Below are positions 7,559 through 31,991 of a stretch of 39,383 nucleotides of DNA, piece by piece (position 1 is the first letter of the stretch; every line of letters begins with the position of its first letter). The translations under genes were made by a program, and so were the position numbers. The notes under the pieces were generated by a model. It saw only the letters and a list, made by a program, of their open reading frames with translations, did no database searches and was not told where the DNA came from. Location: positions 66,547 through 105,929 of the forward strand of contig JAAYEQ010000005.1 in the NCBI GenBank assembly GCA_012728655.1, read 5' to 3'. This DNA comes from Syntrophomonadaceae bacterium (lineage in GTDB: Bacteria > Bacillota > Syntrophomonadia > Syntrophomonadales > DTU052).

Positions 7559-7766
7559 GTGACCGTTTACCTCCATTTGGAGGCGACATCCCTTTCTTCT
7601 TCCAGATTACGCTGGTTTATGCTGCGGGAATCTCGGGGGGAATATTTGTATGAGAATAGCGGTTCGAAGATGCTTTATTGCTTGTTCTGTAGTATTATAA
7701 ACACACAGGGTTATGGAATCAGATTCCAGAACACATTGATGATTTTGAAAACGGGAGGATATAGTC

Positions 7767-28325: not shown

Positions 28326-29294
28326 ATGAGTTTCAGCATCGGAGGATATGTCTTTAAGAACCGGGTAATATGCGCCCCTATGGCCGGTGTTACCGATAAA
28401 GCTTACCGCATCCTGACCGCATCCTTCGGATGCGGTTTAAATTTCACCGAGATGATAAGCGATCAGGCGCTGCTTCATGGTCACCACCGGACCATGGAGA
28501 TGCTGGATTTGTCGCAGGAAACCATTCCCGCCGTAGTGCAGCTCTTTGGCGCGCAGCCGCAGAATATGGCCCGGGCGGCGGCTATTGCCGAAAGACGGGG
28601 AGCCCTTGTCATCGACATCAACATGGGCTGCCCCACTCCCAAGATAGTGAAAAATGGCGAGGGGGCTGCATTGATGAAGGACCTTCCCCGGGCGCGGGAG
28701 CTGATACGGGCGGTGGTAAATGCGGTTGATATTCCGGTCACGGTAAAAATGAGAAAAGGCTGGGATGACTCCAGCATCAATTACCTGGAACTGTGCCGTA
28801 TAGCCGAAGCCGAGGGCGTCAAGGCCATCACCCTTCATCCCCGTACCCGCGAGCAGTTTTTTTCCGGGCGGGCCGACTGGAATGCGATCCGGGAGGCCAA
28901 AGCCGCGGTGAATATCCCGGTCATCGGCAACGGGGACATTTTTGAGGCTGAGGATGCTCTGGAAATGATCAGGCAAACCGGCTGTGATGCGGTTATGATC
29001 GGCCGCGGAGGTATGGGGAATCCCTTTCTGTTCGCAGCGGTGGCGGCGGCTTTGAATGGAGAAGAGCCCCCACCCGCACCTACTCTGGCTCAGCGAATAC
29101 AAACCGCCCTGCGCCATTTTGACCTGATGCAGGAACTGAAGGGTCTTGACCGCACCATCGCGGAGATGCGCAAGCACCTGTCCTGGTACATCAAAGGCAT
29201 CCCCGGGGCGGCCCAGGTCCGCAACCGGATAAACCAGGCCGCCTCCCGCGAGGAGATCTACGCCATACTCATGGGTCTCTTGGATAAAGCCTGA
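28326..29294 (+). CDS. dusB: tRNA-dihydrouridine synthase, DusB/NifR3 type
   Basis: FMN and NADPH-dependent reduction of uridine in tRNA. It has 322 residues: a TIM barrel opening with ICAPMAGVTDKAYR, the catalytic-cysteine segment INMGCPTPKIVKNGEGAALM near 100-119, and the C-terminal helical tRNA-binding domain (MRKHLSWYIKGIPGAA). The start is ATG 28326. It follows coaX by 7 bases. A strong GC hairpin follows its stop. Confidence 0.95.
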   Translation: MSFSIGGYVFKNRVICAPMAGVTDKAYRILTASFGCGLNFTEMISDQALLHGHHRTMEMLDLSQETIPAVVQLFGAQPQNMARAAAIAERRGALVIDINMGCPTPKIVKNGEGAALMKDLPRARELIRAVVNAVDIPVTVKMRKGWDDSSINYLELCRIAEAEGVKAITLHPRTREQFFSGRADWNAIREAKAAVNIPVIGNGDIFEAEDALEMIRQTGCDAVMIGRGGMGNPFLFAAVAAALNGEEPPPAPTLAQRIQTALRHFDLMQELKGLDRTIAEMRKHLSWYIKGIPGAAQVRNRINQAASREEIYAILMGLLDKA

Positions 29295-29343
29295 TACGGC
29301 ACCGGGATGCATCTTCCGCAGCCCGGGGTTTCCCGGGGCCGTA
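29295..29343 (+). terminator. GC-rich hairpin after dusB
   Basis: TACGGCACCGGG (29295-29306) pairs with CCCGGGGCCGTA (29332-29343) at 11 of 12 positions. An inner CCCGGG/CCCGGG can also fold alone. There is no T-tract, but it begins right at the stop codon and is followed by a new promoter, so it likely ends the bioY-coaX-dusB transcript. Confidence 0.5.
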
Positions 29344-29405
29344 TCGGGTACAAGCCGGAGCAGGGTTTACCCTCATTGTCCTTACCCGGATTTTTGCCCT
29401 CCCCC

Positions 29406-29434
29406 TTGATCAGAATTTTTTCCAGTGGTAATAT
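29406..29434 (+). promoter_or_regulatory. Extended -10 promoter of the uncharacterised three-gene module
   Basis: TTGATC (29406-29411), a 17-base spacer, and TAATAT (29429-29434) preceded by TGG, an extended -10. Transcription would start near 29441, just in front of the tandem repeats, and the RBS lies at 29468-29474. Confidence 0.65.
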
Positions 29435-29446
29435 GTTTTTGTCCTC

Positions 29447-29468
29447 ATTGTGAACAATATTGTGTACA
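29447..29468 (+). promoter_or_regulatory. Tandem 10-bp repeat operator
   Basis: ATTGTGAACA (29447-29456) and ATTGTGTACA (29459-29468) are direct repeats with one mismatch, at a 12-base period. ACAATATTGT between them is a perfect palindrome. They lie between the expected transcription start and the ribosome site of an HTH regulator gene, the usual place for self-repression. Confidence 0.55.
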
Positions 29469-29478
29469 GAGGTGCAGA

Positions 29479-30030
29479 ATGGATTTTTACCGGATTCAGG
29501 ACAAGATGGTCAGCAGGGAAAAGCTGATGGCGGCAATTACCCGGATCCTGGAACTGAGATCCAAAGGGTATTCCCAGCAGGAGACGGCCGACCGACTGAA
29601 CGTAGACCGGACCTTCATATCCCGTCTTGAGACCCTGGGCGAAGTGCGCAAAGGACAATCCATTGCGGTTATCGGTTTTCCCATTTTGAATAAAGACGAG
29701 ATCCAGAAACTGGCAGATAATGAGGGAGTTGATTTTACCCTCCTGTTCACAGAAGAGGAACGCAATAACTGGGTGTCCAGCAAAACCGGGAGCGAATTGC
29801 TGAACGAGCTCATGGACTTGATTGCCCGCGTGAAGAAGTATGATGCAGTTATTCTCCTGGCCTCCGATTACCGGTTGCGACTGATGAAAGGTTTGCTGGA
29901 CAATGAGGTTCTTACCATTGAGATCGGAGAGTCACCTCTTACGGAAGACAAATGGGTGGATCCCCAGGAATTCCTGCGGGTTCTGCGGGCGGTCAAGAAT
30001 GCGCGTAAACTTAAAACTACGGAACGATAG
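29479..30030 (+). CDS. HTH-domain transcriptional regulator of unknown family
   Basis: A 183-residue protein. Residues about 11-58 form a helix-turn-helix (SQQETADRLNVDRTFISRLE around 32-51). Residues 59-183 look like an alpha/beta sensing domain: SIAVIGFPIL, then a helix, and YDAVILLASDYRLRLMKGLL near 130. I do not know its ligand. The start is ATG 29479, with AGAGGTG upstream; the frame opens at 29425, but that part holds the promoter and operator. It has its own promoter with a tandem repeat in its leader. The Rossmann-like gene starts 7 bases later, and a third gene follows, so they form one small operon between dusB and greA. Confidence 0.8.
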   Translation: MDFYRIQDKMVSREKLMAAITRILELRSKGYSQQETADRLNVDRTFISRLETLGEVRKGQSIAVIGFPILNKDEIQKLADNEGVDFTLLFTEEERNNWVSSKTGSELLNELMDLIARVKKYDAVILLASDYRLRLMKGLLDNEVLTIEIGESPLTEDKWVDPQEFLRVLRAVKNARKLKTTER

Positions 30031-30037
30031 GGGGTAA

Positions 30038-30949
30038 ATGGGATTGAAACATGTAGTCAGCGTGAGTCTGGGCTCATCAAAGAGAAACCATGCGGTGGAA
30101 ACTGAGTTCCTGGGCGAGAAATTCCGGATCGAGAGGATCGGTACCGACGGTAACTGGGATGAGGCCATCAACCTGATCCGCCGCCTCGACGGAAAGGTTG
30201 ATGCGTTTGGCATGGGAGGCATAACCCTTTATATTTACGCAGGCAACCGCAGGTATATCATGAGAGACGCCAAAAAACTGCTGCTCGAGGCCAAGAAAAC
30301 CCCCATAGTCGACGGTGGAGGTATAAAGAATATCTTGGAGAGACAGAGCATTGAGCGGGTGGCCCGGGAAGGCATTGTGGACTTCAAAGGCCGTCGCGTT
30401 CTCATGGTCTGCGGAGTGGACCGGTTGGGCATGTCCCAGGCACTGAGCGAACTCAGCGACCAAGTAGTCTTTGGAGACCTGATTTACGGCTTGGGTATAC
30501 CGATAAGGATTCGCTCACTGAAGGGCTTGGAGAGGCTGGCCCGGGTTATGGCCCCGATTGTGGTTAATCTGCCATTTGATTCATTGTATCCCACCGGCAG
30601 CAAACAAGAAGTCATAATTCCCAAGTTCGCCAAATACTATTATGAAGCGGATATAATCGCCGGAGACTTCTTGTATATCAGGCGTTACCTGCCGGAGCGG
30701 CTGGATGGCAAGATGGTAATCACCAATACCACCACCCGGGAGGATGTTGAACTGCTGCGGGAGCGGGGAGTCAAGCTCCTGGTAACTACCACGCCGGAGA
30801 TGGAAGGCCGGTCCTTTGGCACCAATGTGATGGAAGCTCTCCTGGTAAGCATAATCGGCAAACCGGTAGACCGGATAACCGAAGATGACTATCGCAACCT
30901 GCTGCGGGAACTGGACTTTCGCCCCGGAGTGGTTTACCTCAACGATTAG
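30038..30949 (+). CDS. Rossmann-like protein of unknown function (often named quinate dehydrogenase-like)
   Basis: A 303-residue protein. I believe relatives are annotated as quinate 5-dehydrogenase. The motifs I would need for that are not visible: no GxGxxG and no shikimate-type catalytic Lys-Asp pair. What is seen is a glycine-rich stretch near residues 57-62 (DAFGMGG), DGGGIKN near 98, a second alpha/beta domain from about 120 (GRRVLMVCGVDRLGMSQAL), then YPTGSKQE near 187 and a C-terminal helix. It might bind a nucleotide or a sugar-like ligand. The start is ATG 30038 with AGGGGG 3 bases upstream, 7 bases after the HTH gene. The operon context suggests it works with the regulator; the name should not be taken as function. 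Confidence 0.7.
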   Translation: MGLKHVVSVSLGSSKRNHAVETEFLGEKFRIERIGTDGNWDEAINLIRRLDGKVDAFGMGGITLYIYAGNRRYIMRDAKKLLLEAKKTPIVDGGGIKNILERQSIERVAREGIVDFKGRRVLMVCGVDRLGMSQALSELSDQVVFGDLIYGLGIPIRIRSLKGLERLARVMAPIVVNLPFDSLYPTGSKQEVIIPKFAKYYYEADIIAGDFLYIRRYLPERLDGKMVITNTTTREDVELLRERGVKLLVTTTPEMEGRSFGTNVMEALLVSIIGKPVDRITEDDYRNLLRELDFRPGVVYLND

Positions 30950-31025
30950 CTGTGCCGGTCCCGGTTGTGGCCGTTTGGCGGCAGAGAGCCGGCTGACGCC
31001 TGAATTACGTCAGGTAGGTTGTAGG

Positions 31026-31955
31026 ATGAAGCGGATCGGCTTGCTAACCATTCCCTATAGACCGCAAAGAGGACCCCTGTTTAAACCGGCGGTATTGAAC
31101 AGGGTTGCCTCTATTTTTTTTGGCCCCCGCATATCCGGTATCATCAGGATGAAGGAAGTGGAATTGGAGGTATGGGAACTTCACATCCCGCTGGAAAATG
31201 AAAGCCTGTATCACCTTGACCCACAGCATAAAGAACAATGCCGGCAGAAACTGGCGGCATTGTGCCGGAAGCTGGGGATTAAATCCCTGGGGGTAAGCCG
31301 CGTCCTCAGGCCGGGGATAATGGATTCGTTGGCCGTGGAGGGGAGAAGGGGTGACTGCTTCATCATTGCTCTGGCCTTGTTACGACTAGAGGAGATGCTG
31401 GAGTTTGTCAGAGCCCGGCGGGTGATACTGGTCTCGGATCAGGAACTGGCATATACGCTGGCGGTCGAGATCAGCGAAAGGTTGAAGCTGCCTGTATTCC
31501 TGCAGACTGCCAACCCGCGTCAACATGAGCCCACCGTCCTCAGGATGCTGCAGCGGTACGGCCTGGCCCTGTCACTGGCCCTCCTCAATCCTGCAGGATG
31601 GAAGGACGATGATATCGTCTTCATACTCGATGAAAAATACCGGGACCTCATCCGGCAAGCCGGGGTCGGGGAGACGGTTCTGCTGCCGCCTTTGCCGCCG
31701 GTTGATCTGACCGACAGCAGCCGCGGGCATGCCCCGGAACTGGAGAAAAGGCTTAAGGAGCAGGGTCTTAATCCGGCGCTGCATCACCTGGCTCCGCTTA
31801 TGGAGGCCTATTTGCTGGATGGGGAAGATACCGGACTGCAGATTATAAATCACCTGGAAGCGGGAGGGGGCCGGGTATGGGACTACTTCCTTGACAAGGT
31901 TAGGGACGGTCATTATAATACCATAAAAGGATTTGAGCGAGAAATATTGAGATAA
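31026..31955 (+). CDS. Conserved hypothetical protein, third gene of the module
   Basis: A 309-residue protein I do not recognise. It begins KRIGLLTIPYRPQRGP and has alternating strands and helices: VELEVWELHIPL near 40-50, then ARRVILVSDQELAYTLAVEISERLKLPVFLQT near 137-169, a nucleotide- or sugar-binding-like alpha/beta pattern. There are no membrane helices, signal peptide or metal motif. The start is ATG 31026 with AGGTAGG upstream; the frame opens at 30885, but that would overlap the previous gene by 65 bases. It follows that gene by 76 bases and ends before a strong terminator, so it closes the module. Confidence 0.75.
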   Translation: MKRIGLLTIPYRPQRGPLFKPAVLNRVASIFFGPRISGIIRMKEVELEVWELHIPLENESLYHLDPQHKEQCRQKLAALCRKLGIKSLGVSRVLRPGIMDSLAVEGRRGDCFIIALALLRLEEMLEFVRARRVILVSDQELAYTLAVEISERLKLPVFLQTANPRQHEPTVLRMLQRYGLALSLALLNPAGWKDDDIVFILDEKYRDLIRQAGVGETVLLPPLPPVDLTDSSRGHAPELEKRLKEQGLNPALHHLAPLMEAYLLDGEDTGLQIINHLEAGGGRVWDYFLDKVRDGHYNTIKGFEREILR

Positions 31956-31966
31956 GTGGTCCTCGG

Positions 31967-31991
31967 GAAGCAAACGCTGCTTCGATTTTTT
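31967..31991 (+). terminator. Rho-independent terminator of the three-gene module
   Basis: GAAGCA (31967-31972) pairs with TGCTTC (31978-31983) over a 5-base loop, followed by a run of T from 31986. It separates the module from greA. The AT-rich 40 bases after it probably hold the greA promoter, but no clear pair of boxes was found. Confidence 0.75.

Follow-up and report, generated by a model that had tools for sequence, protein, structure and literature searches.

Between the genes dusB and greA of a Syntrophomonadaceae bacterium lie three co-directional open reading frames (designated A, B and C), of which we think A and B probably belong to an undescribed regulon. In this regulon, the presumed regulator A would join fatty-acid synthesis to the formation of long-chain amines (or amino ketones), B would be the constant partner, and C would be a catalytically dead descendant of D, an acyl-thioester enzyme encoded in most of the related loci. 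The argument draws on the conservation of the genes, the distribution of an operator-like palindrome, an either/or pattern between D and an enzyme of the serine palmitoyltransferase/oxoamine class (AOS), the homologies of the encoded proteins and the loss of residues in C, with all functions assigned from sequence. In the literature that we searched, which included few subscription journals, we found no description of the A-B-D group, of the regulator with its operator and regulon, of B, or of the D-AOS exchange; D, AOS and the aminotransferase that often accompanies D are enzymes of known kinds.

Layout of the locus and its expression signals

The window, i.e., the whole stretch of 39,383 nucleotides that was analyzed, carries the three genes on its forward strand: A at 29479-30030 (183 aa, with a likely ATG start at 29479), B at 30038-30949 (303 aa, likely start at 30038) and C at 31026-31955 (309 aa, likely start at 31026). 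The gaps between them are 7 bp (A-B) and 76 bp (B-C), and the longest open reading frames of A and C begin further upstream than the likely starts. As read from the sequence, a ribosome binding site, GAGGTG, precedes A at 29469-29474 (forward strand), and a predicted promoter of the A-B-C operon, TTGATC-17 bp-TAATAT, spans positions 29406-29434 of the same strand (boxes at 29406-29411 and 29429-29434). This promoter was missed by a consensus scan because it matches the consensus at only 8 of 12 positions; the same layout is found upstream of A orthologues. An earlier note on this DNA had placed an uncharacterized group of genes, with a promoter of its own, in housekeeping surroundings; in this respect it was confirmed.

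The same note had also placed a terminator hairpin behind dusB and a good intrinsic terminator before greA. A very stable stem is indeed present behind dusB (29289-29349, forward strand; -46.1 kcal/mol, z -3.5), yet with its start at the dusB stop codon and without a U-tract it does not qualify as a canonical intrinsic terminator. As for the second element, a weak hairpin (GAAGCAAACGCTGCTTC) followed by a T-run does exist downstream of C, at 31967-31983 of the forward strand, but as a terminator it does not stand out from chance (2 sites of this kind versus 3.1 expected; fold z -0.9). A promoter that matches the consensus at 12 of 12 positions, TTGACA-17-TATAAT, is embedded in the 3' end of C (31891-31919, forward strand); its TTGACA is kept in 14 of 14 C loci, with a -10 box of the TATAAT or TAAAAT type at matching spacing. 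This perfect sigma-A type promoter presumably serves greA-lysS, and because the weak hairpin lies downstream of it, the hairpin would be transcribed within the greA leader, of which it is probably a part. Since the promoter is encoded at the conserved FLD end of C, the conservation of this end may partly reflect the promoter.

In the loci of relatives, the usual gene order is coaX-dusB-A-B-X-greA-lysS, where X is C in Syntrophomonadales only and otherwise usually D (350-370 aa). In each of the 56 loci with a detected A, this gene adjoins B, upstream of it and in the same orientation. The three-gene module of the earlier note therefore stands in part: what is conserved, rather than the trio, is the pair of A and B, well beyond this locus, together with an acyl-thioester enzyme, whereas C is confined to the window's order. 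In eight loci of the Thermosediminibacteraceae type, a 320-aa protein (cluster 16), Lon-substrate-domain-like or otherwise unidentified, is encoded between dusB and A.

Gene B encodes a widespread orphan protein

In a scan of one genome per species, B relatives were encoded at 468 places. The best 80 of these were mostly from Bacillota (Clostridia), with a few from Armatimonadota and Actinomycetota, and among these 80, B was ~54-61% identical outside the window's order. The closest named relatives come from Syntrophothermus/Syntrophomonadaceae assemblies, in one of which B is identical, while that of Syntrophothermus sp. DTU052 is 90% identical. Co-occurrence was assessed in 149 genomes of one phylum, which are not independent of each other, and GTDB families were counted as well; B was present in 117 of the 149, i.e., nearly 80%. 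The plasmid records searched held no B.

B was said in the earlier note to show no known catalytic site, and it is in fact an orphan family: searched as a single sequence, B gave nothing significant in Pfam, NCBIfam or the PDB, its profile had no match in the PDB, and 44 B relatives gave none of note in Pfam. Across 44 aligned sequences, ~50 residues never vary. The AlphaFold model of B is confident (pLDDT 90), two-domain and Rossmann-like. Among its fold matches, the TM-score is highest for TAD, an NADH-binding protein of the carmabin pathway (0.54), followed by acyl-ACP reductase (0.46); the matches to YdiB and AroE are weaker (0.34). When the B and D profiles were compared, hhalign gave a probability of 13-18%, which leaves this a relation by fold only, and B has no Cys in the helix equivalent to that of acyl-ACP reductase.

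B correlates with Spo0A (113 of the 117 genomes with B versus 19 of the 32 others, Fisher 3e-7). This correlation is explicable by phylogeny and nothing else points to sporulation, and B was rejected as a sporulation gene. Diverged second copies of B were seen in several genomes (eight loci), with unrelated-looking neighbors: SfsA-like, patatin-like, PHP-domain and ThiL-like genes.

An operator-like palindrome outlines a probable small lipid regulon

A carries an N-terminal helix-turn-helix (with an HTH_3 match in 22 of 26 orthologues) and, as seen in the alignment, a conserved C-terminal domain of unknown fold; on these features it is presumed to be a regulator. It was found in 97 of the 149 genomes, never without B. 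Between the -10 box and the ribosome binding site of A lies a near-perfect operator-like palindrome, TGTGAACAATATTGTGTACA (29449-29468), which the earlier note does not mention and the general form of which is TGTGCACA-N4-TGTGCACA. The motif model, TGTGCACAAAATTGTGCACA, fits 70 of 82 distinct A upstream regions (shuffles, ~0), and a regular expression for the palindrome matched 59 of the 82 A loci (shuffle mean, 0.03). In the window, the palindrome matches TGTGNACANNNTTGTGNACA perfectly and is the sole such site in this genome. When the exact degenerate pattern was searched, sites were found in 52 of the 149 genomes, compared to 0 with the reversed control, and A was present in 45 of these 52 (Fisher 6e-5). 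We infer that A binds the palindrome. Some exact matches look like chance or like sites of other regulators and were set aside: one is inside a gene, one precedes a GntR-type gene, and five genomes have exact sites but no A.

Most genomes have a site at A only. A second search tolerated two mismatches. Away from A, the operator was found upstream of aminotransferase-D fusions in ten genomes (in two of which, G032 and G144, A and B were not found), upstream of an aminotransferase followed by D in one, of an aminotransferase alone in one, of D alone in one, and of AOS in seven, including the window's genome and the one genome, G001, that has B with both D and AOS. Stand-alone aminotransferases were mostly without an operator. 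Sites at fab genes were found in few genomes, one of which (G096) has two at fabZ-fabH-fabK-fabD-fabG-fabF. In another genome (G010), a site lies at an operon of YloU-like, fatty-acid-kinase-like and DegV-like genes. In the window's genome, the next-best sites, and the only ones with a single mismatch, precede AOS and a fabH-fabK-fabD-fabF-fabZ run. The rest of the system is encoded elsewhere in this genome, AOS on contig C16 and the fab operon on contig C75. The fab, DegV and kinase genes were named by reading their sequences, while AOS and the aminotransferases were checked against models. A small lipid regulon under this palindrome is, as a pattern, well supported.

A resembles FapR, which regulates fatty-acid synthesis in Bacillus, Staphylococcus and Caldicellulosiruptor, in having sites at fab genes (predicted ones in the case of A). 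Unlike those of FapR, however, the putative sites of A lie mostly at its own operon, D, the fusions and AOS, and in Pfam and NCBIfam A matched HTH models only, with no FapR or hotdog-type match.

Either D or AOS accompanies B

D was detected in 103 of the 149 genomes, 100 of which have B. Most of its sequence shows homology to the acyl-ACP reductase of cyanobacteria (6jzq, E 1e-24), and it is also homologous to the N-terminal half of PigE. Its GATGSIG loop and its Cys align with the cofactor loop (GATGxIG) and with the acyl-carrying residue C294 (PMC7089970) of acyl-ACP reductase (TIGR04058; PDB 6jzq/6jzu). At 126 bits, D falls far below the TIGR04058 equivalog cut-off of 449.7, and is therefore a homologue, not an orthologue, of this enzyme; its setting differs as well, with no deformylating oxygenase as a neighbor in the loci read. 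In the first set, roughly one D copy in four is truncated or has no Cys.

Of the 100 genomes that have both D and B, 87 also encode a PigE/TamH-type aminotransferase, often as a fusion with D. An aminotransferase of this class was found neither in the other 13 nor in any of the 18 genomes that have AOS and B. The fusions place a class III aminotransferase and an acyl-ACP-reductase-type domain in one chain, as in PigE/TamH-type enzymes, and share the domain order of TamH, aminotransferase first. In TamH, a fused transaminase and thioester reductase act as a coupled cascade that yields amines from fatty acyl-ACP (PMC9594044), and PigE carries out thioester reduction, followed by transamination of the aldehyde (PMC8341465). 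In contrast to TamH and PigE, the domains are mostly separate genes in these genomes, no pyrrole pathway was seen in the loci read, and the aminotransferase and D are linked to A, B and the shared operator. On plasmids, most D homologues are part of proteobacterial proteins annotated as class III aminotransferases, and are in this sense PigE/TamH-like. Aminotransferases of Deinococcus megaplasmids were matched by one query but not by a stricter one, and were not accepted as members of this class.

AOS was assigned in 19 of the 149 genomes, with scores of at least 523 bits (the next class scored 458). The AOS of the window's genome has a bacterial serine palmitoyltransferase as its best PDB match (E 7e-89), yet it scores below every curated cut-off, including those of the serine palmitoyltransferase equivalog NF047600 (390 bits versus 640) and of the BioF/Kbl subfamily (420 versus 535). 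It differs from serine palmitoyltransferase and other alpha-oxoamine synthases in having an A-type operator upstream and in being mutually exclusive with D.

This exclusion is nearly complete. All 117 genomes with B have D (100) or AOS (18), including all 17 without D, which have AOS, and a single genome has both; in that genome (G001), D was matched over its first 254 positions only. Within the genomes that have B, the exclusion is significant (Fisher 1.5e-19), and when counted by GTDB family, 51 families are D-only, 9 are AOS-only and 1 has both. The either/or pattern of D versus AOS is thus well supported. Moreover, in the window's genome AOS adjoins oxidoreductase and DegV-like genes that in sister genomes are the neighbors of the aminotransferase-D fusion (one locus compared with two). 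It seems that one set of enzymes took the place of the other at this position, under the same operator. In several families (seven loci), AOS is followed by a zinc alcohol-dehydrogenase-like gene, a candidate for reducing an amino ketone.

Gene C most likely descends from D but is inactive

C was present in 5 of the 149 genomes, all of the window's order. As a single sequence it gave nothing significant in Pfam, NCBIfam or the PDB, and its profile gave nothing in the PDB. When compared to the D profile, however, the C profile matched over 264 columns (E 4.6e-9, and 4.7e-10 with more sequences), while in the same comparison the unrelated profiles of A and B had probabilities below 2%, placing C in the acyl-ACP reductase superfamily by detectable homology. 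The NAD(P)H loop GxxGxxG is absent from C, and the position of the Cys (C294 in acyl-ACP reductase) is held by a Pro that is nearly invariant in the C family. Given that C has lost both the loop and the Cys, yet is under purifying selection (dN/dS 0.25, compared to 0.16 for B and 0.13 for A), it most likely descends from D, has become inactive and has kept a role other than catalysis. The absence of a known catalytic site, noted earlier for C as for B, thus reflects in C a degenerate acyl-ACP reductase homologue without cofactor loop and Cys; as to a known enzyme with a settled function among the three proteins, the one link is that C descends from a known enzyme family. In the Syntrophothermus DTU052 locus, C carries a CCCTTGACA-type tandem repeat and an assembly gap (positions 7660-7720 of that locus, L003), corresponding in position to a Pro/Leu-rich stretch of the window's C.

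A proposed pathway and its alternatives

We propose that A acts at the palindrome to control both its own operon and a small lipid regulon, in which fatty-acid synthesis would be coupled to enzymes that channel acyl thioesters into nitrogen-bearing lipids with long chains. In most genomes, D would reduce an acyl thioester to an aldehyde, and the class III aminotransferase, often fused to D, would convert the aldehyde to an amine. In a minority that includes the window's genome, AOS would instead join an acyl thioester to an amino acid, giving a long-chain amino ketone. The product, a long-chain amine or amino ketone, is proposed by analogy with the known enzymes. Both routes would share a long-chain base, and B therefore probably acts on this base or on a shared intermediate; most likely it would act on the product of both routes or on such an intermediate. 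It is perhaps a distant relative of D that uses a nucleotide cofactor, although what B does is a guess. C would have been kept under selection in the window's order after the fusion or AOS had assumed the reaction of D.

Part of the same evidence could be read differently, namely that the module regulates fatty-acid synthesis, with B and D (or AOS) making or removing a signal (an acyl thioester, aldehyde or amine) that is sensed by A, in parallel to FapR, which senses malonyl-CoA. The operator sites at fab operons and at the fatty-acid-kinase-like operon, the strict occurrence of A with B, and the retention of C without its catalytic residues, as for a sensor, would all be in line with such a role. 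Yet B strictly goes with one or the other of two acyl-thioester enzymes whose chemistry differs, which looks biosynthetic, as does the aminotransferase that accompanies D, and the fab sites are found in few genomes; we regard sensing as the clearly less likely purpose. It is rather unlikely that the output of D and B is fatty aldehydes destined for lipids of the ether or plasmalogen type, with the aminotransferase only a side partner: D is homologous to acyl-ACP reductase, an aldehyde maker, and 13 genomes with D and B are without an aminotransferase of this class, but aminotransferase-D fusions occur in many families under the same operator, and AOS, which replaces D, yields no aldehyde.

Finally, A and B might be together through conserved gene order alone, with B an ordinary quinate/shikimate-type dehydrogenase. 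We take quinate 5-dehydrogenase to be a name that clostridial B carries, and YdiB and AroE are among its weak fold matches. The name is also in use for a conserved Deinococcus family (PMC9425974). However, B matches no Pfam or NCBIfam model and its 44 relatives none of note in Pfam, on which grounds B was rejected as a quinate dehydrogenase; its TM-scores to YdiB and AroE are below those to TAD and acyl-ACP reductase; and gene order cannot explain the either/or pattern, because AOS and the fusion partners are unlinked to the A-B locus. We consider this explanation very improbable.

Implications for lipid synthesis

B, a protein of ~300 residues, occurs in nearly four fifths of the genomes sampled from the phylum and extends to assemblies of Armatimonadota and Actinomycetota, yet it has no entry in Pfam or NCBIfam; its strict acyl-thioester partner and the shared operator suggest long-chain amine or amino-ketone lipids as the place to look. 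As a bolder and rather doubtful extension, B could be a core enzyme of an alkylamine or long-chain-base pathway for membrane lipids in most of the phylum, and perhaps in Deinococcus and Thermus. Members of both genera make phosphoglycolipids with an alkylamine, and we know of no biosynthetic genes assigned to these glyceroyl-alkylamine phosphoglycolipids, which would fit the reading of B as an enzyme of long-chain bases. The family annotated as quinate 5-dehydrogenase was near-invariant and unassigned in all 33 Deinococcus genomes of a 2022 survey, and is present in Thermus (PMC9425974). If the proposed regulon is correct, most of these anaerobes would make nitrogen-bearing lipids, which seem never to have been sought in them, and this lipid class would be under a new regulator linked to fatty-acid synthesis; the genes described here would then be candidates for the synthesis of alkylamine lipids in other organisms.
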